Shown here: positions 6,001 through 55,359 of the stretch, piece by piece
Layout of the letters: each line of letters opens with the position of its first letter
How positions within the stretch are numbered: position 1 is the first letter of the stretch
Assembly (NCBI RefSeq): GCF_002896875.1
Contig: NZ_CP023278.1
Coordinates: 2,852,001 to 2,916,000, forward strand
Direction: 5' to 3'
DNA from: Nostoc sp. CENA543
GTDB lineage: Bacteria > Cyanobacteriota > Cyanobacteriia > Cyanobacteriales > Nostocaceae
DNA: 64,000 bases
The notes under the pieces: model-generated
Databases searched by the model: none
What the model was told of the DNA's origin: nothing
What the model saw: only the letters and a program-made list of their open reading frames with translations
Program-made: the position numbers and the translations under genes

Positions 6001-9000
6001 TGGGGATTGTGCATAAGCTGTTAATTTCTCAGACCAATCCTTAAAAGAAGTGGTTTTAGGAGGCAACTGAAGGGTTTGACCTTGAGCAAGTTGCTGGTAA
6101 GCGGTTTGCAAATCATTTAATAAAATCCGCCACGATACACCATCAATTACCAAGTGGTGGATGACTATGAGTAATTTTACTCTTTTGTCAACCCCCAAAT
6201 GAAAAAAGGCTACTTGCACTAGATTTTCTGACAGATGCAAATTTGCCTGCAAGACAGCTTCTTGATCTGCAATGGCTGCTTGTTGCTCATTCTCTGGGAG
6301 TGCCGATAAATCTATGTAAGAGAAAGCAAGGTGATCATTAGGCGCAGAATAAATTTGTTGCCAGGTTGCATCAGATGGTGTGAAGCGTAGGCGTAGAGCA
6401 TCATGATGTACCAGTAATTGCTGGAATACTTGCTTTAATGTTTCTGGCTGGAGGTCACAAGGAAATGAGAGTAAAAATGCTTGGTTGAAATGGTGTGCTT
6501 CTACTAAATTCTGTTCAAAAAACCAGTGTTGAATGGGAGTTAGAGGGACTAAGCCTGTGACTAATTCCTGTTTGACCTCGATCGCCTCAATTGTACCTGC
6601 TACTGCGGCTAAATCAGCGATCGCTTGATGGGCAAACAATTGTTTAAGTGTCAGTTGCAGCCCTGCAAGCTTGGCTTTAGCCAGAATTTGAATACTGAGA
6701 ATGGAATCGCCACCAAGTTCAAAGAAGTTATCGTAAATACCTACTTGCTTTACCCTCAGCACTTCTGCCCAAATCTGCGCTAGGATTTTTTCGGTTTGAT
6801 TACGTGGAGCGACAAAACTGACTTCAAGTCCCTCACGAGAGTCTGGTGCTGGTAAGGCGCGCCGGTCTATCTTACCGTTAGGAGTCACAGGTAAAGACTC
6901 TAGAATGACAAAAGCATGAGGCAGCATATACTCTGGGAGTTTTTCTTTGAGATATTGGCGCAGTTCACTCATGGTTACTGTATGGTGTGGCACCACGTAG
7001 GCGACTAGTTGCTTCTGCCCAGGGATATCTTCACGCACAATGACACAGGATGTCTGTACTTCAGGATTGCGGTTGAGTGCGGTTTCGACTTCGTCCAACT
7101 CAATGCGGAATCCACGTATTTTTACTTGATTATCAATGCGACCCAAGTATTCGATGTTGCCATCAGCACCCCATCTTGCTAGGTCGCCAGTTTTGTAAAT
7201 GCGCTCAACTTGACCAAATAGATCAATTTCAATAAATTTTTCAGCAGTAATTTCGGGACGATTTAAATAGCCTCTAGCTAAACCAACCCCAGCAATACAC
7301 AATTCCCCTGGTATTCCTGGCGGTAATACTTGATGATGTGCATCTAAAATATAGATGCGGAGATTAGATATTGGTTTACCGATGGGTGGTTTTTTGCCAT
7401 TGGGTTGACAAAGAAATATAGTAGCCGTCACTGTGGATTCTGTTGGCCCGTAGCAATTGTAGAAACGTCTCTCCGTTCCCCACTGATTAACTATTTCAGT
7501 TGTACAAGCCTCACCACCGGCTGTGAGACATTGCAAATCAGGTAAACTCGCTTTCGGTAAGACAGATAAGGCCGAAGGAGATAAAAAGCTATGGGTAATT
7601 TTGTTTGCTGTTAAAAAGTCAACTAAGCTTTGACTAGGCAATAAAGTTTCTTTATTGGCCAAATACAAACAAGCACCTGTGACGAAAGCCGTGGTAATTT
7701 CAGCTACAGATAAATCAAAACTAAAAGAACCAAATTGCAACAAACGGCTGTGGTTTTGAACTTGGAAGGTTTTAGCCCATGTCAAACTTAAATTGACAAT
7801 GGCGCGATGCTCAATCATTACCCCCTTGGGTCTTCCTGTAGAACCGGAGGTATAAATTACGTAGGCTAAATTATCAGGCTGAGTTTGGCGACTGGGATTT
7901 TCAGTTAACGCTAAGTTAAAAGTGTTTTGGTCTAAACAAATGACCTGACAAGGGTTTTCTCGGTTATCTAAGGGTAATTGACTTAATAGTGACTTTTGAG
8001 ACAGCAACAAAGACACTTGAGCATCTTGCAACATCAAGCTTATACGCTCAGGAGGATATTCTGGGTCAATTGGCAGATAAGCCCCACCAGCTTTAAGAAT
8101 CCCCAACAGTCCGATCGCCATTTCTAGCGATCGCTCCACACAAATACTTACTAGTACGTCTGGTTTTACACCCAAAGACCGCAGGTGATGTGCTAATTGA
8201 TTAGCCCGACAATTCAATTGGTGGTAAGTTAATTGCTGATTTTCAAACACCACAGCCACAGCATCCGGTGTTTTCTCTACCTGTTCCTCAAATAACTGAT
8301 GCAGACATTTATCTTGGGGATAATCTGTATGAGTGTGATTCCACTCCACTAACAATTGATGCTGTTCTTTTTCAGTCAGCAAAGGCAATTGTCGCACTTT
8401 TTGTTGGGGATCTTTGACTATTGCTGCTAACAAACTCTGGAAATGACCAATCATCCTGGTAATTGTGTCGGGTGTGAATAGGTCACTGTTATATTCCCAA
8501 AACCCCTTTAATCCCTTTTTAGTCTGCCAAGCTGAGACACTCAAGTCGAACTTGGACGTACCCCGGTCAATGATTTCTGGAGTCAGACTAATACCAGGTA
8601 ACTCTAAAGTTTCCAGGGAGAAATTTTCTAGAACAAATAACGCCTGAAACAAGGGATTATAGCCCAGAGAACGTTCTGGCTGTAATGCTTCTACTATTTG
8701 TTCAAATGGGATGTCTTGGTGTGCGTGGGCATCCCAAACCACAGACCGGACTTTTTCTAGCAACTGTGAGAAACTAGGATTGCCTTCTAACTGGGTACGC
8801 AAAACCAAGGTATTGACAAAAAAGCCAATTAGTGAATCAATTTCTCGGCGATCGCGGTTAGCAAAAGGCGAACCAATGCAAATATCATCCTGACCACTAT
8901 AACGATGCAGTAAAACAGCAAAAGCTGTCAGCAGCGTCATAAACAAGGTGACACCTGACTGTTGGCTCAGGGTAACAAGCTCAGAGGTTAAATCTTCATC

Positions 9001-9894
9001 AATTTGAAATGCAATCGTCGCACCAGCAAAAGTCTGCACTGGGGGACGGGGATAATCTGTTGGTAACTCCAACAAAGGCGGTGCGCCAGCTAACTGTTGT
9101 GTCCAGTATTCTAGTTGCTTTTCTTGAACTTCTTGAGTTAACCATTCACGCTGCCACACAGCGAAATCAGCATATTGTATTGCTAATGCCGGTAAGGGAT
9201 TGGGCTTTCCTTGAATAAAGGCTGAATACAGTGCTTCTAATTCTCGGAAGAATATCCCCATTGACCAACCATCTACAACGATGTGGTGCATGGTGATAAT
9301 CAATAGGTGAGATTCTGGTGTTTGCCGTAGTAAAGTGACTTTTACTAAGGAATCTGTACCTAAATCAAAAGACTGACTTACTTCCTGAGTGATGATTTTT
9401 TGTACAGCAGTTTCTGTGCATTCCTGCACATCTATTACAGGAATGCTGATAGTTAAATTAGGTCTAATAAGCTGAAGGGGAATACCTTCTACCGTCGGAA
9501 AGTTAGTACGTAAAGCTTCATGACGACGAATAATTTCGTTAATGCTCTGTTCTAAAGCTGTGACAGATAGTTTACCAACAATTCTTAACTGGAAACTCTC
9601 ATTATAAAATGTGCTTTCTCCATCTAATTGCGAAAGAAACCACATTCTCTGCTGGGCAAAAGATAAAGGTAAATCTTTATTTCTAGAAACTGGATCTAAA
9701 GATAACGAAGTTAATTGTGTAGCTGTTTGTGCTTCCTGTAAAAAAGCGATAATTTCTGCTTTACGTTCCTTAAGTTGCTCTTTTATCTCTGCTGTCATTG
9801 CTCCTTTAGGAGCGCGATAGCGTAACTGATCATCCTCAATCCAGATTTTAATATCTAAAGTATTTAGTAAAGATAAGAATTCAAATATAGCCAT
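1..9894 (-). CDS. Nonribosomal peptide synthetase, 3' end beyond window (docking-C-A-PCP-E-C-A-PCP-C-A...)
   Basis: Open without a stop from ATG at 9894 to the window edge (3298 codons seen). Residues 1-55 match a TubC-type N-terminal docking domain (LRYRAPKGAMT). Then: C1 (HHIVVDG near 202), A1 (about 535-1010), PCP1 (GGDS, Ser about 1064), E (HHLVIDGVSWRIL near 1246), C2 (LSPMQEGMLF near 1595, HHLLLDG near 1730), A2 (about 2057-2540), PCP2 (GGHS, Ser about 2594), C3 (HHIVSDG near 2786) and A3, cut just after its TSGSTGRPKG motif. A1 and A2 both keep NGKIDRRAL with the catalytic Lys. My eye-aligned specificity residues are D-L-A-F-T-G-C-V-T for A1 (unassigned) and D-A-F-F-L-G-V-T-F for A2, a pattern associated with Ile/branched residues. 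GGDS plus E means module 1 delivers a D-residue, and C2 should be a D-accepting condensation domain. The start lies one base after the loader stop, so translation is probably coupled. Confidence 0.95.
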   Translation of the reverse strand, partial: MAIFEFLSLLNTLDIKIWIEDDQLRYRAPKGAMTAEIKEQLKERKAEIIAFLQEAQTATQLTSLSLDPVSRNKDLPLSFAQQRMWFLSQLDGESTFYNESFQLRIVGKLSVTALEQSINEIIRRHEALRTNFPTVEGIPLQLIRPNLTISIPVIDVQECTETAVQKIITQEVSQSFDLGTDSLVKVTLLRQTPESHLLIITMHHIVVDGWSMGIFFRELEALYSAFIQGKPNPLPALAIQYADFAVWQREWLTQEVQEKQLEYWTQQLAGAPPLLELPTDYPRPPVQTFAGATIAFQIDEDLTSELVTLSQQSGVTLFMTLLTAFAVLLHRYSGQDDICIGSPFANRDRREIDSLIGFFVNTLVLRTQLEGNPSFSQLLEKVRSVVWDAHAHQDIPFEQIVEALQPERSLGYNPLFQALFVLENFSLETLELPGISLTPEIIDRGTSKFDLSVSAWQTKKGLKGFWEYNSDLFTPDTITRMIGHFQSLLAAIVKDPQQKVRQLPLLTEKEQHQLLVEWNHTHTDYPQDKCLHQLFEEQVEKTPDAVAVVFENQQLTYHQLNCRANQLAHHLRSLGVKPDVLVSICVERSLEMAIGLLGILKAGGAYLPIDPEYPPERISLMLQDAQVSLLLSQKSLLSQLPLDNRENPCQVICLDQNTFNLALTENPSRQTQPDNLAYVIYTSGSTGRPKGVMIEHRAIVNLSLTWAKTFQVQNHSRLLQFGSFSFDLSVAEITTAFVTGACLYLANKETLLPSQSLVDFLTANKITHSFLSPSALSVLPKASLPDLQCLTAGGEACTTEIVNQWGTERRFYNCYGPTESTVTATIFLCQPNGKKPPIGKPISNLRIYILDAHHQVLPPGIPGELCIAGVGLARGYLNRPEITAEKFIEIDLFGQVERIYKTGDLARWGADGNIEYLGRIDNQVKIRGFRIELDEVETALNRNPEVQTSCVIVREDIPGQKQLVAYVVPHHTVTMSELRQYLKEKLPEYMLPHAFVILESLPVTPNGKIDRRALPAPDSREGLEVSFVAPRNQTEKILAQIWAEVLRVKQVGIYDNFFELGGDSILSIQILAKAKLAGLQLTLKQLFAHQAIADLAAVAGTIEAIEVKQELVTGLVPLTPIQHWFFEQNLVEAHHFNQAFLLSFPCDLQPETLKQVFQQLLVHHDALRLRFTPSDATWQQIYSAPNDHLAFSYIDLSALPENEQQAAIADQEAVLQANLHLSENLVQVAFFHLGVDKRVKLLIVIHHLVIDGVSWRILLNDLQTAYQQLAQGQTLQLPPKTTSFKDWSEKLTAYAQSPALKSEVAYWLNEARLKVPSIPVDLTKGVNNFAAANTILLSLSESETRALLHDVPKAYNTQINDVLLTALVLVVSKWIGSRSVLFNLEGHGREDIVDGVDLSRTVGWFTTIFPVLVELPATDKLADVLKSVKEQLRAIPNKGIGYGLLRYLSQDAEIASQLQAFPQAQISFNYLGQFDQQVNTSSWMQPASESAVKMHGLQNNRPYLLEIDSIIAGEQLRIEWTYSKNLHQHATIENLAQEFFQTLQQIIAHCASGENGGYTPSDFSLVRFNQLELDQTLALVCKHQSGKTHWRNIEDIYPLSPMQEGMLFESLYAPNSPAYFEQSIYNLSGQLNLSAFEQAWQQVVARHSILRTGFIWEQLPQPLQVVYRQVDVKLQTYDWQHLSPQQQQQKLESLLQSQRQQGFQLSTAPLMHLSLVQLSADRYQFVWNFHHLLLDGWSVPVIFQDLLYFYRAILQGETQTRPPVLSYRNYIAWLQQQDLTKAQEFWRQKLQGFTAPTPLTVDKPSSQRKQLDASYREQKIQLTATATTALQTFARQHQLTMNNVVQGTWALLLYRYSQETDIVFGATVSGRPASLIGVESMVGLFINTLPVRVQLGNETEVLALLQDLQTQLVESEQYSYSSLVDIQGLSDVPRGTPLFESLVVFDNYPVNEAAPENNYGFSIDDLHAIEQTNYPLTIIAIPGQQLLVRISYDTSRFDDGAIARLLGHFQTLLTAIVANPNERISQLPLLTAWEKQQLLVDWNNTQAEYPVDQCIHQLFEEQVEKTPDAVAVVFENQHLTYQQLNCRANQLAHYLQDLGVKPDTLVGICVERSLEMMVGLLGILKVGGAYVPIDPEYPTERLSFMLTDTQVKVLLTQEKLREFLPQYQGRIVCLDSDWNSISLENQNNLNITVSAESLAHVIYTSGSTGTPKGVAVTHQSVNRLVINTNYIQLTANDRIAQAANIAFDAATFEIWGALLHGAVLVIISKSVLLIPEELAVNISSHKVNVLFLTTALFNQLASHLPQAFSSLKYLLFGGEAVDPRWVQEVLEKGTPQKLLHVYGPTENTTFSSWYWVEKLVGTATTVPIGRPITNTQIYILDQNLQPVPVGVPGELYLGGDGLARGYLNRPELTNEKFIANPFGKSKLYKTGDLARYLPDGNIEYIKRIDNQVKIRGFRIELGEIETVLSQYPKIKSVVAIAREDSPGNKRLVAYVVPHQDSQPVAQELRSFLKTKLPEHMIPGVFVILESLPLTPNGKIDRRALPQPDLDSTLLEKYVAPHNPIEELLAQVWAQVLKVGQVGIYDNFFELGGHSLLATQLVSRIRNIFQVELPLSELFTAPTVIELAQKIGQLQPEQLELSAPQILPRAEISELPMSFAQQRLWFLDQFDQNSVLYNIPTALRLVGKLNLQVLEQSLQEIIHRHEALRTNFITINEQPTQVIQTQINWQLSIVDWQHLPTAEQETSVQQFLQQQALERFDLVRQTLIRATLILLNQTEQILLVCMHHIVSDGWSMGVFVQELTQLYNAYSQGQPSPLAPLAIQYADFALWQRQWLQGEVLQNQLAYWEQQLKDAPTVLSLPTDRPRPAVQTVTGAIHEFALSVELTDQLVKLSQEQGCTLFMTLLAAFDTLLYRYTGQSDILVGSPIANRDRAEVEGLIGFFVNTLVMRSNLAGNPSFSELLTRVRDMALGAYAHQHLPFEMLVEALQPERDLSHTPLFQVMFNLQNAPVSELELNGLTVSSLPIPGVTAAFDMTLFMQNTANGLVGVWEYNTDLFDHSTIERMIGHFVTVLEAVVSNPQAPIDQLPILTAVEQQKLLLEWNDTQADDPVGKCLHELFAQQAELTPDAVAVVFENEQLTYQQLNTQANQLAHYLQSLGVRAEVLVGIYLERSLSMIVALLAVLKAGGGYVPLEVDYPQQRLAYISEDSEISVLITQESLLNSLPVVGVKVIALHQEWDVLNSQDQENPVSAVVPENLACVLYTSGSTGRPKGVMLTHAALVSHCSAISEAFSLTSSDR

Positions 9895-9895
9895 T

Positions 9896-12800
9896 TTATA
9901 AATAATCCTCTTCGTAATCTTCTGCGAGTGTTTCAGTCAAGGAATTTTTATTTTGAGTTACTGCTTGAATTGCTAGAATTGTCTGAGATAAATCAGCAAT
10001 GGTAGGTGCTTGAAACAAACGCTGTAAAGATAATTCCACAGCGAAATATTCGCGCAACAGAGCAATCACTTGACCAGCTAATAAGGAATTTCCTCCTAAC
10101 TCGAAAAAGTTGTCGTGAATGCCTAGCAGTTGCACTTTCAGAACTTGCTGCCAACATTGAGCAATTTTAATCTCTATTTCGTTGCGTGGTTCTATTCGCT
10201 CTCTAGTTTCCTGAGACTTAATGTTGTTAATAAGGCTAACACGATCAATTTCACCATTTTCCCGGCAAGGAATGTCTGGAATTTGTACCAAGTTGCAATT
10301 ACAAGCATGACCAAAGCGGTCTTGCACTCGTAAATTTGATAATTTAACTTCGTTAATTCTAGAAGTAAAATAAGCAGTTAACTTTTGTAAGTTAAAGATT
10401 TGAGACTGCCAACATTGAATGTTTTGATTACTCCCATCCAAACCTATCAATATATTTGTTTGTTGATGTTGTAGACTAGCAATCATTGAAGATATGGCTT
10501 GGGAAGCAGACATGATATAGAAACCTTTAGCGCGGATGAGATTCTTCATCTGATATCCTTGGCTCATGCCTCTGTCATCCCACATACTCCAACTAAGACA
10601 ATAGCTGGCTAATTTACTCTGGGCATTTTGGTAATGAGAAAAACTATCCAAAAAACTATTAGCAGCACCATAAGCTCCGACAGCAGTAGCACCAAAAAAA
10701 CCATTTACTGAAGAAAAGTTAATAAAAATACTGTCTTGATTGTGTTTAATTAATTGATGCAGCACCCAAGCTCCCAAAACTTTTGGACGAAGTATAGACT
10801 TTAAGCTTTCTTGAGTTTCATCAATTACAAGTTGCTCATGAAAAGTTCCAGCTAAATGCAGTATGCCATCCAGGTTTTTACCCCATTGGGCTTGAGCTTT
10901 TTCAACTGTGATTTGTAACTGTTTTAAATTACAAATATCCACAGCTTCGTAGATTAACTCTCCCCCAATTTGTTTTAATTCTTGATAGACTTTGAGGCGT
11001 TTTTCTGAAGTTAATGGGGTTCTGCCCACTAACAGTAATTTGGCTTGATAATGCTGCAATAAATACCGCGCGACTTCGACTCCTATACCACCAAGTCCGC
11101 CGGTGATTAAATACATCCCACCTTGTTTGAAGGTAATTGCAGATGGAGATTGGCTGATAAAATCAACTTTTTCTAGCCGGGGAACAAAACGCTGCCCATT
11201 TCTATAAGCCACTTCTCGTTCCTTGGCATAAATTTGGATTTCTTTTAAGATAAATTCTCCATTTTGTTCCGCTTCAGCAAAGGGTAAATCAATGTGGCGA
11301 CAATTCAACCAAGGTAATTCTTGGGGAATGGTTTTTAGTAGCCCTAATACTGCTGATTTCTCATAAGCTATGGAGTCATCTGAGGAAATAGCCTGGATAT
11401 GAGAAGAAATAAATAGTAATTGGACTGAATGATCCGCACCTTGAACTTTGGCTAAAGCTTGAGTCAAAAACAATAAACTATATATGCCGTATTCTTGTGC
11501 TTGTTCTAAAGTATCAATGCTTTTGACTTCGCCAATATATTGGTTATAAGTCCATAGGTGAAGAATTTGCCCAATGATAATATTATCTGCTGCTAGTGAT
11601 TCAAGTAAAAGTTGGTAATCTTTGGCTTGTCCTGCTGTAATGGTGTAGTGTGTGTGATTGATTTTGCGGAAATCTTCTCCAGGTGTAACACTTATGTATG
11701 GCAGGTTATGTTCTGACAATACTTGACATACATAAGAACCCAAACCGTCAGCATCTAAAAATACTAATGTGGCATTAGTAACAGTGAAAACAGAATCAAT
11801 AGTAATGGGATTTTTGAGTTGCCATACTTGACGGTAGAACCAGTTTGGAATGGTATTGGCATTACCGAGTAATATATCAATGCGTTTAGTAATTGATTGA
11901 AACTCACCTTTTTGGAAGCGTTGGCTGAGTTGCGATCGCTGAATTTTTCCTATGGCAGTTTTTGGAATAATTTCTTTATCTACTGGAATTAAATAATCAG
12001 GATTTATTCCTGCTTTGTTGACAACAGCAGTACGAATTTCTCTGAGCAGATTTAACAAACTAACATCATCAGTCACAGAAGTATGGAAAAAGATTGCTAG
12101 TTTATCTGTATTAATTCCAGGTTGTCTGACTGCACAAGCTGCCGTATATGAAACTTCTACTCCTGCTAATTCTTCAACAGCAGCCTCAATTTCGTGACAG
12201 TAGTAGTTCAATCCATTAATAATAATGACATCTTTGATTCTTCCGGTAATAGTTAAACGTCCTTGATCAAGAAAACCTAAATCTCCTGTGTTAAACCAAC
12301 CATCAGCCGTAAAAACTTCTTGATTTGCTTGGGGATTTTGATAATAACCATTAGTAACAGACGCACCTTTTACCTGTAAACGACCAATAGTATTTTCTGC
12401 CACTATTTGTTCATTTTCATCAACAATGCGTAATGAAGCTCCAGCAATTGGTAGTCCTAATTCTACAAATGAAGTGTCATCCGATGAAGATTCAAGGGAA
12501 AAACTATCAGAATAGGTAATACCTGAAGAAGTTTCACACATTCCAAAAGCTGGGTGAATAGCATCAGTCGGTAAACCGTGACGACTTAGTAATTTTAAGA
12601 AATTTCTGGCTGTTTTAGTGACAATCGGCTCCCCAGCGTTGATGATAAACTTCATTGAGGATAAATCCCAATTCTGACGATTGATTTCAGAAGTGCGATC
12701 GCAAATTAAGGAAAAAGCAAAGTTAGGAGACCAACTAATGGTAGCTTGATGTTTATCAATCAAATCTAGCCACAGGAGTGGTTTCTGCACAATTAGGTTA

Positions 12801-48595: not shown

Positions 48596-48979
48596 GAAAT
48601 TTGCGAAAATTAGTCCCAAGTTTGTGATTGAACTGCGTTCTGAAACTGATAATTGAAGAACTTTACAAGACAAGATGCAAGAATATAAGTAGTCAGGCAT
48701 GATTAAACATTAAGATATCATTGCGGTCGCGGTTAATTGATAGAAAACAACACCAAGTTTTTATTTATTTTTCGTCCTAATATTCCAGTTGAGATATTAG
48801 ATAACCCTCAGACGCTTTTTGGTTAATCTCTATTACCTGGTTTTGTTTTGGATTTAAATCAAATTTGGTAACGAATAAATCTCAAAGTATTAGAAATTGA
48901 TTCATACTTTATGGGCAAACTAACTTAGTGGTCAAATTTAGTACCACTAGGGAAAATACCTAAATAGGAGAATTCCATA
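48596..48979. other. Spacer upstream of the helicase-HNH gene
   Basis: No gene seen in 384 bases. The only recognisable structure is the upstream element (48910-48958) shared with the next two genes, followed by TAGGAG as the ribosome-binding site of the helicase gene. Confidence 0.65.
48910..48958 (+). promoter_or_regulatory. Shared upstream element, copy A
   Basis: Core dyad ACTAACTTAGT at 48919-48929 in the context TATGGGCAAACTAAC, followed by GTCAAATTTA. A second inverted pair, TAGTGGT / ACCACTA (48926-48932, 48943-48949), overlaps it. It lies 51 bases before the helicase-HNH ATG. About 49 bases are clearly homologous to copy C at 52389. Confidence 0.65.
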
Positions 48980-51520
48980 ATGTACGCATCTATCAATCTG
49001 GATCAAGTAAGAGATGGTAATTTTTCTTCCAAAACACCTTTCCAGCACCAAATTGAGGCGTTTAATGCCCTTAGTAAAACTTTTAAATTTGGCAGTGAAA
49101 AACCAGGTAGTGGAATTTTAGTTCTACCCACAGGCGCAGGTAAGACATTTACGGCTGTTAGATGGTTGTCTGAGCATGTAATTCCGAAAAATATTAAGAT
49201 ACTTTGGTTAGCTCCATCATTTTACTTATTAGATCAAGCATTCGAGACCTTCAAAAAAAGTGCTAGTGAGATTCCAGAATCTAAAAAAACATTAAATATT
49301 CGATGCGTTTCTAGTAATCCATCTCATGCTAAGGCCGCATCGATAAAATTAACTGATGATATTGTCATCATGACAATACAAACAGCTATCAAGAATTTAC
49401 ATACTGAAGCAGAAGACAAAACTGGTAAAAAGTTCGAGACAGCTTTTAGAAAATTTATAGATTTTTGTAGAAAATCAGGACTTTTTGTGGTGGTTGATGA
49501 AGCTCACCATGCACCAGCTTATGGTTGCAGAAACTTATTAATTGGTGAAAAAGATTCTGCTTTAGGGCTACGATTATTATGCCCAAACTTAAATCTTCTT
49601 GGTTTAACAGCTACGCCAACTCATAATGATAATGCCATAAAGGGTTGGCTGTGGAAAATTTTTGAAAATAAAATTATTTACGAAGGCAATAAAGAAAGTT
49701 TAATATCACAAGGAATTTTAGCTCAACCTCATTATATTGAAGTATCAACTGGTAAAGAATGGGAAGTAGATGATAGTTTATATAACCGATTAGTTAAGCA
49801 GCATAAAGACCTGCCAGAATACATTATTGAACAACTTGCATCTGATCGAGATAGAAACAATTTTATAGTAGATACTTATATAAAAAATAAGAAAAATTAT
49901 GGCAAAACTATTATTTTTGCTGACCGTTGGTTTCAATGCGTTTACATAAAAGATAAGATGATTGAACAAGGTATTCGAGCCGATGCAATTTATTCACATA
50001 TAGATGCTGATCCTGGTTCAGCCGAAGCACGAAATAAACGTAATCAGGATGATAATAAAAGAATTTTAACTGCATTTAAAGATGGAAAAATAGACGTTTT
50101 AATCAATGTGAGAATGTTAACAGAAGGTGCTGATGTTCCTAATGTTCAGACTGTATTTATCACTCGTCAAACAACAAGCTCTATACTCATGACTCAAATG
50201 ATTGGCAGAGCATTGCGAGGCAAAAAAGTAGGAGGCAGTAGTGAAGCGAATGTTGTGTTATTTTTCGATGATTGGAAACGTTTAATTGATTGGGTTGATC
50301 CAAAAAATGGCGAAATGAAGGTCATTGAAGAAGCTGAAGTTAGAGAAAATTACCCCCTAGAATACATATCAATTTGTTTAGTAGAAGAATTATCGAAATC
50401 AATTGAAAGTGGTGGAGAATATTTAATAGAATACAATAAAATCTGTCCAATTGGATGGTATAAAACTGAAATTGAATATGCCGACTCTGAAAATCAGTCT
50501 GACTCAATGGAATCATTTACTGAGTTTGTCATGGTATATGAACACACCAAAGACAAACTTGGTACTTTTATGACATTTATTCGTTCAACAGATTTGCTTG
50601 GTGAATGGTCTAAAGAATATCTTGATGAACAATGGATGCAGCCTCAAGTTGAACAATGGCTTGATAAATACTTTGACCGTAAATCTGACGATATTGGACA
50701 AAAGCTTCAGTCTGATTTAATGAAGATTGTACGCCATATCGCTCAAAATGAATCTTTACCCCCATATCATTCATTTGAAGAAAGAGAAAATTATGACTTA
50801 GATAAAATGGCAGAAAAAGTTATGAATTTTTTACCTTATCAAAAACATGAATATTTAAAGGGAGAATTTTCGAAACCTGGCACACTATGGAAGACTTTCT
50901 ACAAAAACTTGCGTCGATTTGAAACAGCCGTTGATGCAGCAATTATAAACATCATTTATTCTCACCGAAGTGTGGTAGATAAAATTAGTCCAGTTGAGAT
51001 TAATCCTGATCAAGAAAAGAACGAGGATAGAGAATTAACTGAAGCAGAAAAAGCAGAAGTTAAGAAAAGAGACGGCTATGTTTGCCTATGTTGTGGAACA
51101 AACAAATGGGATAAATTACAAATCGACCATATTAAACCGTTTTCTATGGGGGGCAAAACAACTATAGAAAACTCACAGACATTGTGTAATATTTGCAATA
51201 GAGTTAAGGGCAATCATGAAATTAGTTTTTTGTGTAAACAAACCAAATTAAGCAGTCCCAAAAAACTTGATTTATCACGACCATATACAGGTCAGAGTGC
51301 TACAAGAATTATTACAAGATTAGTTAATATTTTCTACCATTGCAAAGCAGTTTATAAAGTAAGTTGGCATGTACTTACTTACACTTACAGTATAGAATTA
51401 TATCCAGGCAATAATCCTGAATGGTTGCGTAAACATCGAGCCGAACTCCTCAATTTCATTCAAAAGAAACTTGGCGGTAGTGCTTTCAACATTAGTGTTA
51501 ATACAACTTATAAAACGTAA
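48980..51520 (+). CDS. SF2 DEAD/DEAH helicase with C-terminal HNH nuclease
   Basis: 846 residues. The helicase core: Walker A PTGAGKT (50-56), DEAH in VVVDEAHHAP (about 170-179), LTATPT (about 209-214) and motif VI QMIGRALRGKK (about 406-416). A middle region of ~250 residues is unrecognised. The HNH nuclease lies at about 694-745: KKRDGYVCLCCG, QIDHIKPFSMGG and LCNICNRVKGN, with two Cys pairs for zinc. The fusion resembles helicase-nuclease proteins of restriction-like and other phage-defence systems; defence is inference. Excellent start (TAGGAG, 8 bases). The next two genes also encode nuclease-fold proteins and share an upstream element. Confidence 0.92.
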   Translation: MYASINLDQVRDGNFSSKTPFQHQIEAFNALSKTFKFGSEKPGSGILVLPTGAGKTFTAVRWLSEHVIPKNIKILWLAPSFYLLDQAFETFKKSASEIPESKKTLNIRCVSSNPSHAKAASIKLTDDIVIMTIQTAIKNLHTEAEDKTGKKFETAFRKFIDFCRKSGLFVVVDEAHHAPAYGCRNLLIGEKDSALGLRLLCPNLNLLGLTATPTHNDNAIKGWLWKIFENKIIYEGNKESLISQGILAQPHYIEVSTGKEWEVDDSLYNRLVKQHKDLPEYIIEQLASDRDRNNFIVDTYIKNKKNYGKTIIFADRWFQCVYIKDKMIEQGIRADAIYSHIDADPGSAEARNKRNQDDNKRILTAFKDGKIDVLINVRMLTEGADVPNVQTVFITRQTTSSILMTQMIGRALRGKKVGGSSEANVVLFFDDWKRLIDWVDPKNGEMKVIEEAEVRENYPLEYISICLVEELSKSIESGGEYLIEYNKICPIGWYKTEIEYADSENQSDSMESFTEFVMVYEHTKDKLGTFMTFIRSTDLLGEWSKEYLDEQWMQPQVEQWLDKYFDRKSDDIGQKLQSDLMKIVRHIAQNESLPPYHSFEERENYDLDKMAEKVMNFLPYQKHEYLKGEFSKPGTLWKTFYKNLRRFETAVDAAIINIIYSHRSVVDKISPVEINPDQEKNEDRELTEAEKAEVKKRDGYVCLCCGTNKWDKLQIDHIKPFSMGGKTTIENSQTLCNICNRVKGNHEISFLCKQTKLSSPKKLDLSRPYTGQSATRIITRLVNIFYHCKAVYKVSWHVLTYTYSIELYPGNNPEWLRKHRAELLNFIQKKLGGSAFNISVNTTYKT

Positions 51521-51573
51521 ACTTATTTCTACTCCTGAAGAAACTTAAAAGTATGTAAATCTGAACCTTATAT

Positions 51574-51604
51574 TCTGGACAAACTAACCTAGTGGGTAAA
51601 TAGT
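51574..51604 (+). promoter_or_regulatory. Shared upstream element, copy B
   Basis: CTGGACAAACTAACCTAGTG with dyad core ACTAACCTAGT at 51583-51593, 89 bases before the Uma2 ATG. It matches copies A and C over the core and left flank but diverges to the right. Confidence 0.55.
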
Positions 51605-51681
51605 CTCACCTCTCTGGAGAAGCTGTCCCCAGCCACCTAAATTAGAGATAATATGTTCAAAGCAGTCACTCTCCATCAGCT

Positions 51682-52329
51682 ATGACTCAAGCCATACACA
51701 AGCCAGTAACATTTGAGGAATTTGTCAATTGGCTACCCGAAAATACTGCGGTACGCTACGAATTACATAATGGAAGCATTGTTGAGATGGCACAACCAAT
51801 AGGGGAACATGAGGAAGTCAAGGGTTTTATAGCTAGAAAAGTCACGGTTGAATTTGACCGCTTAAACCTCCCCTATATGATCCCCAACCAAGCTATAGTT
51901 AGACCTCTGGAAAAAGATTCTGGTTATTTTCCTGATGTGTTGGTGCTAAATCAGGCAAATTTGGTCAATGAAACATTATGGAAAAAAGAATCCATCGTGA
52001 GTTTAGGTACAACAATACCTTTGATAATTGAAGTTGTCTCAACTAACTGGCGGGACGATTACTACTTAAAATATGCTGACTATGAGGAAATGGGTATCTC
52101 TGAATATTGGATTGTAGACTATGCTGCCTTGGGTGGACGCAATTTTATTGGCAACCCCAAACAAGCAACCATCTCTATCTGTAATTTAGTGGATGGAGAA
52201 TACCAAATCAGTAAGTTTCAAGATAGCGATGTCTGGCGACAAGCCGCAGAGCGTCTACGCATTATCTCCCAAACCTTTCCTGAATTGAACCTCACCCCAA
52301 CCCAAATTTTTCAAGCTGGCTTGGTGTAA
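51682..52329 (+). CDS. Uma2 family (DUF820) restriction-endonuclease-like protein
   Basis: 215 residues. The Uma2 fold is clear: FEEFVNWLPENTAVRYELHN (in part, about 12-30), the Asp in DSGYFPDVLVLNQAN (about 87-101) and IPLIIEVVSTNWRDDY (about 114-129), with Glu and the positively charged follow-up typical of PD-(D/E)XK nucleases. DYEEMGISEYWIVD then continues the core. Uma2 proteins are very numerous in cyanobacteria and mostly uncharacterised. It follows the helicase-HNH gene by 161 bases on the same strand and shares its upstream element. Confidence 0.93.
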   Translation: MTQAIHKPVTFEEFVNWLPENTAVRYELHNGSIVEMAQPIGEHEEVKGFIARKVTVEFDRLNLPYMIPNQAIVRPLEKDSGYFPDVLVLNQANLVNETLWKKESIVSLGTTIPLIIEVVSTNWRDDYYLKYADYEEMGISEYWIVDYAALGGRNFIGNPKQATISICNLVDGEYQISKFQDSDVWRQAAERLRIISQTFPELNLTPTQIFQAGLV

Positions 52330-52345
52330 ATAATGTTTTAAATTC

Positions 52346-52384
52346 GTCGAACTCTCGTTTTTTTAGTGCTGTCGAACTCACGTT
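52346..52384 (+). repeat. 14-base direct repeat before the GIY-YIG gene
   Basis: GTCGAACTCTCGTT (52346-52359) and GTCGAACTCACGTT (52371-52384), 25 bases start to start, directly abutting shared element copy C. Together they form a dense putative control region. Confidence 0.55.
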
Positions 52385-52388
52385 AAAT

Positions 52389-52436
52389 TATGGGCAGACT
52401 AACCTAGTAGTCAAATTTAATTGCTAGGTAAAAATA
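52389..52436 (+). promoter_or_regulatory. Shared upstream element, copy C
   Basis: TATGGGCAGACTAACCTAGT with dyad core at 52398-52408, then AGTCAAATTTAATTGCTAGG. Near-identical to copy A over about 48 bases apart from a small deletion, and 35 bases before the GIY-YIG ATG. Confidence 0.65.
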
Positions 52437-52442
52437 GAGATT

Positions 52443-53270
52443 ATGAAGTTGAATCTCAATTATAAGACAATGCCAGTTTTACCCTATATTCAACGTAAAG
52501 AACTACCAGCAAAACCAGGCATTTACTATATAGGTAATAGCTTATCTCCAGTTATGTACGTCGGTCTTTCACGTAATTTGAAAAGTCGTCATATAAACCA
52601 TCACCGCCAAGGACAGTTTGAGGTAATGGAAAATGCTGTGATACGCTATCGTGTTTTAACAGAGGATTTTTTAGCTACAATTTCAGACTTAACTAAGACT
52701 CTCATGAAGTTAGAGAAGCAAGCTATTGATCACTACAAACCGCCTATCAACAACACACCTGTAGCAAATCAAGCAAAATTTACAACAGTACATGGCCCAA
52801 CTTATATTCAAATTCATAAAGCTAGAGAAGCAGGCTACTGTACACATTTTGAGGCACGAGATGGAGATGAACTGACAATTAACTCTAGTAGATTACCTCT
52901 AATTAGCAGAGCTATTGAAGAACAGCGTCCTATTTTCTTAATAGCATCTGGGGCTTACAAAGATTATGAAATAGCAGGTTATCCTCACCTTTCTGAACTA
53001 TTACCATACAAAAAGGACAGGATTTATCTTCTGATCAGTCGCTTTATTCCTTATGGATATGAGGAGTCCGATTGCTTTGGTTACGACTATGTTGTGTATG
53101 GAGGAAATTCCAAAATATTTTTCAACCCTTATATGATTCTGAACAGTAGACCAGGATTTAATGAATTTAAAAGCAGCTATTTAAAGTTAGGATTTACCAA
53201 TTGTGAACGTTCTCCCTTTGTCAGTGAGTTGTTACGTCTAGGTGACTTCCAACTACTTACACCTGCCTAA
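52443..53270 (+). CDS. GIY-YIG nuclease family protein
   Basis: 275 residues. The GIY-YIG domain lies in about 22-105: GIYYIG at 26-31, MYVGLSRNLKSRH at 38-50 (catalytic Arg candidates) and EKQAIDHYKPPINN near 92-105 (the metal-binding Glu and closing Asn). The remaining ~165 residues are an unrecognised C-terminal region with YLLISRFIPYGYEESD-type strands, perhaps a DNA-binding or sensing part. GIY-YIG nucleases serve in repair, homing and restriction. Third gene of the possible defence cassette, with its own copy of the shared element. Confidence 0.88.
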   Translation: MKLNLNYKTMPVLPYIQRKELPAKPGIYYIGNSLSPVMYVGLSRNLKSRHINHHRQGQFEVMENAVIRYRVLTEDFLATISDLTKTLMKLEKQAIDHYKPPINNTPVANQAKFTTVHGPTYIQIHKAREAGYCTHFEARDGDELTINSSRLPLISRAIEEQRPIFLIASGAYKDYEIAGYPHLSELLPYKKDRIYLLISRFIPYGYEESDCFGYDYVVYGGNSKIFFNPYMILNSRPGFNEFKSSYLKLGFTNCERSPFVSELLRLGDFQLLTPA

Positions 53271-53289
53271 AAATTGCCTGTGTAGACAT

Positions 53290-53327
53290 AAAAAAAGCGG
53301 GCTAACCGCTATAACTTGGTTAACCCG
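53290..53327 (-). terminator. Rho-independent terminator of ycf35
   Basis: On the minus strand a 10-base-pair stem CGGGTTAACC / GGTTAGCCCG (53318-53327, 53298-53307) is followed by C and seven T. It ends the ycf46-ycf35 direction; on the plus strand it lacks a good T-run. Confidence 0.8.
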
Positions 53328-53356
53328 TGCAGCTTTGGGAACGCGCAGAGAAATTG

Positions 53357-53707
53357 TTATTGCAATACTAATTTCACATTTGCGTTTTGCAAACCGCGCT
53401 GTTTTACTTCTGCTAAGGTTTTGTTAACAGCGTATTTTTGGTTGATGGAGTTGATTAACTCGGTTTGGTTGTGCTTCTTAGCAACACCCCACAGGTCAGC
53501 GATGAGGTCAAAAGAACCATCGCTATTGCGAGACCAACCTAAGTCATATTCGCCTTCCAATACTGCAACGATGTCGGAACGAACGCGCTGACCGTTATAA
53601 CCGCGTACATCAGCTTCTGTTTTTACGCTGATACCCAGGTCGCGCAAGGAAGCTTTGAGGATTTCGGCATCGGTGATCTTGGTGCGAAGAGTGCTAAAGT
53701 GAGACAT
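53357..53707 (-). CDS. ycf35: Ycf35 (DUF1257) protein
   Basis: 116 residues from ATG 53707, chosen because GGAGG lies 8 bases upstream; an upstream in-frame TTG overlaps that ribosome-binding site. The sequence MSHFSTLRTKITDAEILKAS and EYDLGWSRNSDGSFDLIADLWG match Ycf35, conserved in cyanobacteria and algal plastids. Function is unsettled; it is small, soluble and probably cytosolic. It lies downstream of ycf46 on the same strand, separated by 140 bases with three hairpins, which may uncouple its expression from the AAA gene. Confidence 0.92.
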   Translation of the reverse strand: MSHFSTLRTKITDAEILKASLRDLGISVKTEADVRGYNGQRVRSDIVAVLEGEYDLGWSRNSDGSFDLIADLWGVAKKHNQTELINSINQKYAVNKTLAEVKQRGLQNANVKLVLQ

Positions 53708-53762
53708 TTGGGTTTCCTCCAATGAGAAGATTGAGAAATTAGGACAACGGTTTTTTTCGGGA

Positions 53763-53844
53763 AGCCGCGATGATTAGGGTGCGGCTGTTTTCGTAACTGC
53801 TAGCGGGTTTGGCTAGCCTTTCCCCCTGGGTTAGCAAGGGAAAG
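53763..53844 (-). other. Three consecutive hairpins between ycf46 and ycf35
   Basis: Inverted pairs AGCCGC/GCGGCT (53763-53768, 53781-53786), GCTAGC/GCTAGC (53799-53804, 53812-53817) and CTTTCCC/GGGAAAG (53818-53824, 53838-53844). They lie head to tail in the ycf46-ycf35 spacer, without a long U-run. They may form an RNA processing or leader structure for ycf35. Confidence 0.6.
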
Positions 53845-53847
53845 CTT

Positions 53848-55359
53848 TTAAAACTCCATTCGCTGATATTCAGCAACGGAGGATGCGGCTGGTCTAGCGC
53901 GCTGTCTTGCCCAGTCTCTTAAGGCTGTGACCTGTTCTTGCATCGTGCGAGACAGTGGCAAGGTGGCTTTAAGTGCCGCAATAATATCTAATTGGGTGAA
54001 CTCGCGGTCTTGGGCAAAGGCTTCATACATTGCCGCAATTAGTGCTTGTTCAATTTCTGCCCCGGAGAAGCCATCAGACATCTTGGCTAGTTGTTCTAAA
54101 TCGAAGCGGGTGATGTCTTCACGGCGTTTATTGAGGTGGATCTTGAAGATATCACATCTTTCTTCGGGTGTGGGCAGATCCACAAAGAAAATTTCATCAA
54201 AACGACCTTTCCTCAAGAATTCCCCAGGTAGGCGTTCTACGCGGTTGGCTGTCGCCATGACGAATACTGGAGATTTCTTCTCTTGCATCCAGGTGAGGAA
54301 AGACCCAAATATCCTACTTGATGTACCCCCATCGGAATCACCAGAACCAGCACTTCCCGCAAAGGATTTATCTAACTCATCGATAAACAAAATTGCTGGG
54401 GAAATCGATTCTGCTGTTTTGAGGGCGTTACGCAGATTAGCTTCACTTCGTCCCACCATCGAGCCGTCGTAAACTCGACCCATATCTAAACGCAATAGTG
54501 GTAAACCCCACAGCCGGGACGTTGTTTTTGCTATCAGTGACTTACCACAACCAGGAACACCTAGAATTAACATCCCTTTGGGTTGGGGCAGTCCATACTC
54601 TCTGGCTCTTTCTGTAAAGGCGTTAGAGCGTTGTTTGAGCCATTTTTTCAGTTCTTCTAAGCCACCTACTGCATCAATGGTTTCATCTTCTTCGATGTAT
54701 TCGAGGATGCCATTGCGCCGGATAAGTTGCTTTTTCTCCGATAGAACTATATCTACTTCTTCTTCAGTCAACCGCCCTGTGGTGACTTGCGCTTTACGAT
54801 ACACTTTCTCAGATTCGTCTTTGGTTAAACCTAGAGCGGCTCTGAGGAGTTTTTCCCGCGCTTCTGTGGTCAACCGCCGCCCCCGATACTGATCGAGATG
54901 TTGAGTTAATACTTTATTTAACTCAGACATATCGGGGAGTTGGAAGTCTAAAACAACTACTTCCTTTTCCAGTTCAATGGGTACTTGCTGCATGGGAGAC
55001 ATCAAAATGATGTTCTTTTGCATACCCTTAAAGCTAGCGATCGCATCACGTAATGACCTTGTGGTCGCGGGAGCATCAATAAATGGATGTAAATCTTTAA
55101 GAATAAATATACCAGGTTCTTTTTGCCGGATGATCCAGTCGATCGCCGCCTCTGGAGAAACGGTGTTGTGTTGACTTACACTCCGGGGTTGACCATACTC
55201 CACGATGCCATGAGTTACTGTCCACACAAACACACGGCGTTGGGGTCTTAACACTTGGGCGATTGTGGAAATTGCTTGCTCTGCCCTCTCTTCCTCGGAG
55301 GTCACAAGGTAGATTAGTGGGTATTGAGCTTGAATGAGAATATTGAGCTCTTCTTTCAT
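53848..55359 (-). CDS. ycf46: Ycf46 AAA+ ATPase
   Basis: 503 residues. The N-terminal ~220 residues are Ycf46-specific (LNILIQAQYPLIYLVTSEEE). The AAA module follows: Walker A LGVPGCGKSL (about 267-276), Walker B AILFIDELDK (about 321-330), and arginine-finger region FLRKGRFDEIFFVDLP (about 381-396). The GFSGAEIEQALI lid motif follows. Conserved in cyanobacteria and some plastids; in cyanobacteria it has been linked to inorganic-carbon-related regulation of photosynthesis (from memory, moderate certainty). Its neighbour ycf35 is co-directional downstream, and a small RHH gene lies 91 bases upstream. Confidence 0.95.
   Translation of the reverse strand: MKEELNILIQAQYPLIYLVTSEEERAEQAISTIAQVLRPQRRVFVWTVTHGIVEYGQPRSVSQHNTVSPEAAIDWIIRQKEPGIFILKDLHPFIDAPATTRSLRDAIASFKGMQKNIILMSPMQQVPIELEKEVVVLDFQLPDMSELNKVLTQHLDQYRGRRLTTEAREKLLRAALGLTKDESEKVYRKAQVTTGRLTEEEVDIVLSEKKQLIRRNGILEYIEEDETIDAVGGLEELKKWLKQRSNAFTERAREYGLPQPKGMLILGVPGCGKSLIAKTTSRLWGLPLLRLDMGRVYDGSMVGRSEANLRNALKTAESISPAILFIDELDKSFAGSAGSGDSDGGTSSRIFGSFLTWMQEKKSPVFVMATANRVERLPGEFLRKGRFDEIFFVDLPTPEERCDIFKIHLNKRREDITRFDLEQLAKMSDGFSGAEIEQALIAAMYEAFAQDREFTQLDIIAALKATLPLSRTMQEQVTALRDWARQRARPAASSVAEYQRMEF

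Follow-up and report, generated by a model that had tools for sequence, protein, structure and literature searches.

A candidate promoter and hairpin leader before exchangeable helicase-HNH and GIY-YIG nuclease genes at a variable locus of Nostocaceae

Why are three consecutive genes of a cyanobacterial chromosome each preceded by a copy of the same short sequence? The question is raised by 64,000 nucleotides (nt) of Nostoc sp. CENA543 (contig NZ_CP023278.1, positions 2,852,001 to 2,916,000 of the forward strand; this whole stretch is called the window below). Here genes for a helicase with an HNH domain, a Uma2 family protein and a GIY-YIG protein lie in a row, each behind a copy of an element that contains the dyad ACTAACYTAGT. 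A first-pass annotation had suggested a shared operator or promoter that joins the three genes into one regulon or, alternatively, a recombination tag that moves gene-sized cassettes. On balance, the element is probably a promoter with a 5'-hairpin leader that serves two exchangeable nuclease genes, helicase-HNH and GIY-YIG. The copies and genes are as follows, with expectation values (E) from R1, a covariance model made from 20 leaders, two of them the window's.

48893..48956, plus strand: element copy E1, before helicase-HNH (R1 E 3.5e-19); TAnnnT box 48905-48910, core 48913-48937, pairing arms 48924-48932 and 48943-48951
48980..51520, plus strand: helicase (ResIII/DEAD and Helicase_C) with C-terminal HNH, 846 amino acids (aa)
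51557..51621, plus strand: element copy E2, before Uma2 (R1 E 2.1e-9)
51646..51654, plus strand: promoter-like box of Uma2, AGATAATAT, 28-36 nt before the Uma2 ATG
51682..52329, plus strand: Uma2 family protein, 215 aa (PADLOC candidate family PDC-S03, 4.3e-96)
52372..52433, plus strand: element copy E3, before GIY-YIG (R1 E 5.5e-15); TAAATT box 52384-52389, core 52392-52416, pairing arms 52402-52411 and 52420-52429
52443..53270, plus strand: GIY-YIG protein, 275 aa

Element copies in the window and in related genomes

The three copies are real and stand far above chance by dyad counts, an 18-mer scan and R1 scores. Their in-register 32-nt parts lie at 48909-48940, 51573-51604 and 52388-52419, the second being 75% and the third 91% identical to the first. 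Throughout the window the exact dyad occurs only at 48919, 51583 and 52398, as had been claimed, and at one mismatch it gives 10 matches against a mean of 2.25 in shuffled sequence. R1 finds nothing else of weight in the window, its next best score being 0.061 within a long open reading frame (ORF). In the 7.2-Mb genome the 18-mer with up to one mismatch returns the window's three copies only; two mismatches add a single site (C1:3519251) that lies within an ORF, and up to three give 39 sites compared with 23 for a reversed control. With three copies in the genome, a genome-wide regulon is ruled out. The proposed distances of 51, 89 and 35 nt from element to gene fit the dyad ends when taken as coordinate differences, and the downstream genes are those that the first-pass annotation had named. 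Its dyad is present but is part of a wider conserved block, which runs from about -17 to +25 when positions are numbered relative to GGGCA in the 20 helicase-HNH and GIY-YIG leaders (the interrupted copy of genome G399 and two Uma2 copies were set aside). Copies 1 and 3 are followed by an outer inverted repeat, CCTAGTnnT...CTAGG, which copy 2 lacks. Where the sequence of the window parts from that of genome G077, immediately to the left of E3, a 14-nt direct repeat, GTCGAACTCTCGTT / GTCGAACTCACGTT, is found at 52346-52384.

An exact search of a species-genome collection with a 19-base pattern returned six stretches, the named records being Nostoc and Desmonostoc. In these the element stands about 55-65 nt before a homologue of helicase-HNH (three stretches) or of the GIY-YIG gene (three, one of which holds a second copy with three mismatches). 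Applied next to 192 genomes of the family Nostocaceae, R1 detected 19 strong copies (E 2.3e-7 or better), spread over 16 genomes; 8 of them precede helicase-HNH, 9 GIY-YIG and 2 Uma2:

Element before helicase-HNH: G000, G240, G317, G399, G409, G424, G429, G446
Element before GIY-YIG: G000, G077, G297, G364, G374, G379 (twice), G407, G420
Element before Uma2: G000, G035

Most of the other genomes have a single element-bearing gene, and no strong copy in the 192 genomes lacks one of the three gene types. A 25-mer scan with up to three mismatches recovered 18 copies in 15 genomes, R1's extra one being that of G374, and the reversed control gave one match, in another genome. Among 378 genomes of the class, the sole R1 match outside the family at E <=0.001 was in G746 (4.8e-4). 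Several weaker candidates were rejected. Four family matches at E 0.0018-0.0066, none with the core intact, are attributable to chance (4 against about 2 expected); two lead into ORFs of other proteins, and no 60-aa ORF follows the other two. A 21-mer match in G058 with one mismatch lacks the rest of the element and is not listed by R1. Two exact 17-mer matches in viral contigs do not keep the rest of it either, and the next ORFs are not these genes. No publication on the element was found in the literature searched, which included GIY-YIG and Uma2 in cyanobacteria and PDC-S03.

Protein searches in the 192 family genomes returned orthologues of both nuclease genes. Among the matches listed, best first, 9 of 10 GIY-YIG proteins at 65% identity or more have the element in front of their gene (G368, at 67%, does not), and six more at 59-63% are without it. 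It is found with helicase orthologues of at least 71% identity, the interrupted G399 gene and the G240 remnant, and is lacking from those at 62-67% (G428, G319, G450, G377). In the protein tree the element-bearing helicases group at 93/96, a grouping that is not starred and leaves out the G399 row; for the GIY-YIG proteins a single clade is neither shown nor rejected (approximately unbiased (AU) test, p 0.15). In G240 (L103:6699-7590) the element and the first helicase-HNH codons are fused to the C-terminal part, the middle being gone. In G399 (L135:6747-8054, 8658-10157) a transposase-like ORF lies between element and helicase-HNH, and another interrupts the gene (both named by eye).

Coding-region exchange at the DUF1257 locus

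Behind one and the same leader, the coding regions for helicase-HNH and GIY-YIG take each other's place. NMS2, with a GIY-YIG gene, and N. foliaceum, with a helicase gene, are 88.9% identical from about -715 to +45 and then diverge. NMS2 likewise has its leader in common with the helicase-bearing G429, and identity is regained at +901 and +2636. Homology between GIY-YIG and helicase leaders crosses the element to +45/+47, the ATG being at +54, and resumes about 25-45 nt past each stop codon. A tree was made of 14 leaders (-110 to +25), which left out 9 of 23, namely leaders without the shared left flank, the Uma2 copies and the interrupted copy. In this tree the GIY-YIG leader of G420 is sister to the helicase leader of G409 (100/99), a single GIY-YIG clade is rejected (AU p 9.9e-5), and the gene label changes four times. 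Together this suggests that the control sequence stays in place and the gene behind it is exchanged.

The element lies mostly at one chromosomal site. The unit of element and gene directly adjoins a convergent DUF1257-AAA gene pair in 11 of the 16 genomes, and the units of FACHB-973 and NMS9 have a DUF1257 neighbour too.

Unit at the DUF1257 locus: G000, G035, G077, G240, G317, G374, G407, G409, G420, G429, G446
Unit elsewhere (4 genomes): G297, G364, G399, G424
G379: no DUF1257 gene within 14 kb downstream on the unit's contig; the contig with DUF1257 ends 0.7 kb from that gene

In the window the rest of this locus comprises:

48732..48871, plus strand: remnant of a Uma2-type C-terminus (LLPGFVLDLNQIW*), left of E1
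53271..53356, no strand assigned: right end of the variable locus, with a terminator-like repeat GCGGGCTAACCGC...GGTTAACCCG
53357..53722, minus strand: DUF1257 protein, the fixed neighbour of the locus
53848..55359, minus strand: AAA ATPase (Pfam: AAA), which we take to be Ycf46-like

DUF1257 was matched in all 192 family genomes, and the terminator-like repeat was found in 22 of 22 sequences inspected. Left of this repeat the sequence differs among the seven loci inspected out of 60 further DUF1257 loci, a selection (two with <750 nt beside the gene) from which the element is absent. The DUF1257 site is thus a variable locus; without the nuclease genes, the element is no constant feature of it. 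A Uma2-type gene tail was shown in the left flank of 5 of 8 leaders checked, and an intact Uma2 gene of G077 (L104:5914-6519) overlaps the stretch homologous to the window's remnant. Other ORFs were seen as well. FACHB-973 has, between GIY-YIG and DUF1257 (L037:6032-6467), a gene for a HicA toxin (Pfam PF07927, 1.6e-17) and an ORF with weak likeness to HicB. ORFs of the same sizes separate the two element-GIY units of Desmonostoc (L106:14560-14995), and a 333-aa ORF with no Pfam match (L104:6722-7723) is found between two Uma2 genes at the DUF1257 locus of G077.

Comparison of the proteins with known families adds a little detail. PADLOC gave partial matches for helicase-HNH, the best being PbeA (4.7e-23, residues 17-416), and none better than 0.045 for the GIY-YIG protein; NCBIfam had no match above cut-off for either of them or for Uma2. 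The predicted GIY-YIG structure (mean predicted local distance difference test (pLDDT) 76.5, predicted template modelling score (pTM) 0.54) has no PDB match at E <=0.001, and its weak matches, which include the GIY-YIG enzyme R.Eco29KI, do not illuminate function.

Anatomy of the leader and the Uma2 copy

Within the conserved block, positions -3 to +15 are almost invariant. Mean pairwise identity is 0.905 in the core (0..+24), compared with 0.565 at -100..-18 and 0.594 at +26..+50. A TAnnnT box is present at -8..-3 in 17 of 20 leaders, the exceptions being NMS2, G424 and Desmonostoc copy 2. The box would be the -10 element of a promoter directed at the nuclease gene, followed by the near-invariant start region (GGGCAAACTAACYTAGT), and its position would place the transcription start near the AAAC of the core, at about +4..+6 (AAACTAAC). 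In four copies (window E3, Desmonostoc copy 2, G364 and G297) homology to the other copies starts only at -4 to -29, so that the promoter would most simply lie inside the element. Read-through from upstream may be an alternative source of transcription. A simple promoter scan of the plus strand matched only at E2 (TTAAAA-18-TATATT, 9/12), and on the minus strand at E1 it gave TTGACC-n18-TAAAGT (9/12).

Just past the likely start, the transcript could form a hairpin in its 5' untranslated region. A 3' arm, CTAG[G/A], able to pair with CCTAGTnnT is present in 20 of 20 helicase-HNH and GIY-YIG leaders with loops of 12-19 nt, and is absent from both Uma2 copies and from the G399 copy, which is interrupted by an insert resembling an insertion sequence. 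The pairing appears in the minimum-energy fold of 19 leaders (not G297), 93.3% of cells are paired compared with 21-56% for slid partners, and stem pair 7 is variously G-C, A-U or C-G; 75 of 10000 shuffles were equally good. Taken together with the covariation counts given below, the controls are mixed, and an RNA hairpin is therefore likely but not proved. Rfam covariance models gave 0 matches up to E 5 across window positions 48600-53800. The 3' arm coincides at least in part with a Shine-Dalgarno-like match in 16 of 20 leaders (GIY-YIG 10/10, helicase 6/10), and because this is so in most leaders, the hairpin is predicted to hold translation of the nuclease low. The invariance of the core suggests that a trans-acting factor probably reads it.

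The proposed module would accordingly drive either of two unrelated nuclease genes, whose coding regions would be swapped by homologous recombination, with the shared leader as the left-hand homology and the DUF1257 flank as the right-hand one. In the window both genes would then have been gathered, with the Uma2 copy probably a leftover leader. It is also conceivable, although rather unlikely, that the invariant core has a double role, as the control sequence and as the target where helicase-HNH and GIY-YIG oust each other; any incoming coding region would then at once be limited by the same hairpin.

The place of Uma2 in this scheme is where the suggestion of a three-gene regulon becomes doubtful. 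The element is conserved before helicase-HNH and GIY-YIG elsewhere, including in genomes that hold only one of them, and it therefore belongs to the expression region of these two genes; to this extent the idea of a shared operator or promoter is sustained. E2, by comparison, has three mismatches in the 25-nt core (GGACA, GTGGGTAAAT) and no 3' hairpin arm, and Uma2's own promoter-like box lies between it and the gene. That box, GATAATAT, occurs about 30 nt before the Uma2 ATG in the window, G111, G077, G404 and G424, and among these five the element precedes Uma2 only in the window. Homology of the window's Uma2 region to G077 starts at about 51642, right of E2. Of seven Uma2 genes examined, two have the element. 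The second of them, in G035, speaks for a role before Uma2: the same copy stands there in front of a gene whose own box is altered (AAATAAGAT). E2 moreover retains a -10-like box (the 9/12 match above) and may drive Uma2. From the sequence, E2 is probably, though not certainly, a leftover leader. The element-helicase unit of G424, which is not at the DUF1257 locus, is followed after about 2.4 kb by a Uma2 gene (L115:13182-13799) with 84% identity to that of the window.

A number of observations weigh against a promoter and hairpin leader for these two nuclease genes. No -35 box is conserved on the plus strand of the 20 leaders, and none is recognisable at E1 or E3. Covariation in the stem is weak: 19 of 500 shuffles match the share of paired cells, 41 of 500 reach the covariation score and 428 of 500 the count of double-change pairs. 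The Shine-Dalgarno sequence lies outside the hairpin in four helicase leaders, among them the window's (AGGAG); an equally long match is found outside the arm in Desmonostoc copy 2 and in G374; and several matches consist of AGG only, 14-15 nt from the start codon. The core is conserved beyond the needs of a -10 box and a hairpin. No regulator was found; none was seen linked to the units among the minority of neighbours that were identified. Orthologues occur without the element (at least four of the helicase and at least seven of GIY-YIG, one with an internal stop). The DUF1257 locus itself can hold pieces of a helicase gene (G111, G442) or whole or partial Uma2 genes (G111, G404, G434) with no element present. 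Finally, many of the downstream genes are damaged: of 9 GIY-YIG copies, 4 are cut down to an N-terminal part of 98-124 aa, and of 8 helicase copies, one is a remnant (G240) and one is interrupted (G399).

Alternative explanations and precedents

An alternative, in our estimate unlikely, is that the core is a cleavage or recombination site for the nucleases or for a recombinase, at which element-gene units insert by intronless homing or cassette integration. It would account for the tandem units of the window and Desmonostoc and for the four copies whose homology begins within -4..-29. The G364 unit, which matches the NMS2 locus over -20..+874, that is, the element plus the coding region, also fits, as do the GIY-YIG and HNH domains of the encoded proteins. 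However, an attachment site is argued against by the lack of any strong copy without these genes in the 192 genomes, to which the 60 element-free DUF1257 loci may be added, and single genes have no second element downstream. None of the units yielded a recognisable recombinase, the search having covered a minority of the neighbouring ORFs, and phage records hold no match to the GIY-YIG protein, plasmids two weak ones. The earlier idea of a recombination tag is thus half borne out, in its effect, the exchange of coding regions behind the element. As no empty or flanking copy was seen and the units showed no recognisable recombinase, a simpler cause would be homologous recombination.

It is likewise improbable that the element acts as a DNA operator only, with a repressor dimer bound to ACTAACYTAGT and the outer inverted repeat, and the RNA hairpin incidental. 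Conservation from -3 to +15 is more than a hairpin uses and overlaps the predicted start, and there is a precedent in RptR, a repressor of restriction systems that binds palindromes over a -10 box (PMC12255303). The spacing of the outer-repeat arms varies from 12 to 19 nt, however, which makes a fixed operator ill-suited, and the neighbours that could be identified, a minority, include no regulator gene linked to the units.

Still harder to sustain is a block that is mainly a leftward promoter (minus strand, TTGAC-n16-CATAAT), the nuclease genes being expressed otherwise. The best case is E3, whose minus strand (52414-52387) reads TTGACT-n16-CATAAT, a 10/12 match to sigma-70 that points away from the nuclease gene and so also counts against a promoter directed at it; of 23 copies, 15 contain an exact TTGAC and 16 an exact CATAAT. 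Yet the scan as a whole returns 21 promoter-like sites where shuffles give 17.7, conservation is higher in the 16-nt spacer than in the boxes, and sequence left of about -29 is not common to several copies, so that a leftward transcript would have no common product. Regulation by ribosome stalling on a leader peptide, NTG GGC AAA CTA ACY TAG (MGKLT*), can be nearly dismissed: variation among the 20 leaders does fall on the start codon (first base A16 G3 T1; second base in G077), a single K/R change and the wobble base of Thr, but G077 has AGG and the window's E2 CTG, the remaining wobble positions never vary, and the -10 box would place the transcript start within the mini-ORF.

A promoter and hairpin leader for exchangeable nuclease genes would have relatives among known systems; the first two below are cited as precedents, and membership is claimed in neither. 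Hairpins that sequester the ribosome-binding site precede phage homing endonuclease genes such as T4 I-TevI, segB and Aeromonas phage Aeh1 mobE (PMC3014915). The likeness is a nuclease gene after a 5' hairpin able to cover the Shine-Dalgarno sequence. Unlike the arrangement described there, one leader here is common to two unrelated nuclease families that exchange at a chromosomal locus, and its sequestration is predicted from sequence and misfits 4 of 20 leaders. The EGeRS1 sequence of pLS20-family plasmids (PMC8708921) is a conserved inverted-repeat leader found before different variable genes in several copies per replicon, which resembles the present element. EGeRS1 is 400-600 bp long and stands on conjugative plasmids before establishment (anti-defence) genes, whereas here a chromosomal element of about 42 bp, with a hairpin arm in addition, stands before nuclease genes. 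The RptR-regulated restriction-modification island shares short palindromes over a defence-gene promoter (PMC12255303); RptR is encoded by the first gene of that island and binds TAGCTA repeats, in contrast to the present units, where no regulator was recognised and the core is without TAGCTA. Finally, hotspots of exchanged antiviral content such as those of P4/P2 (PMC9122126) similarly place differing genes at one site between conserved neighbours. Here, in contrast to what is described for those hotspots, the leader of the exchanged gene is conserved too, the exchange boundary lies inside the leader, and a role in defence is putative.

If the element is indeed such a leader, the control sequence, rather than the gene, would be the shared part of a variable nuclease locus, and it would offer a sequence handle for finding further genes of this kind; regulatory motifs have helped to find anti-defence genes (PMC11065993). 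The locus would also provide a clean test of how bacteria restrain potentially self-endangering nucleases right after acquiring them.

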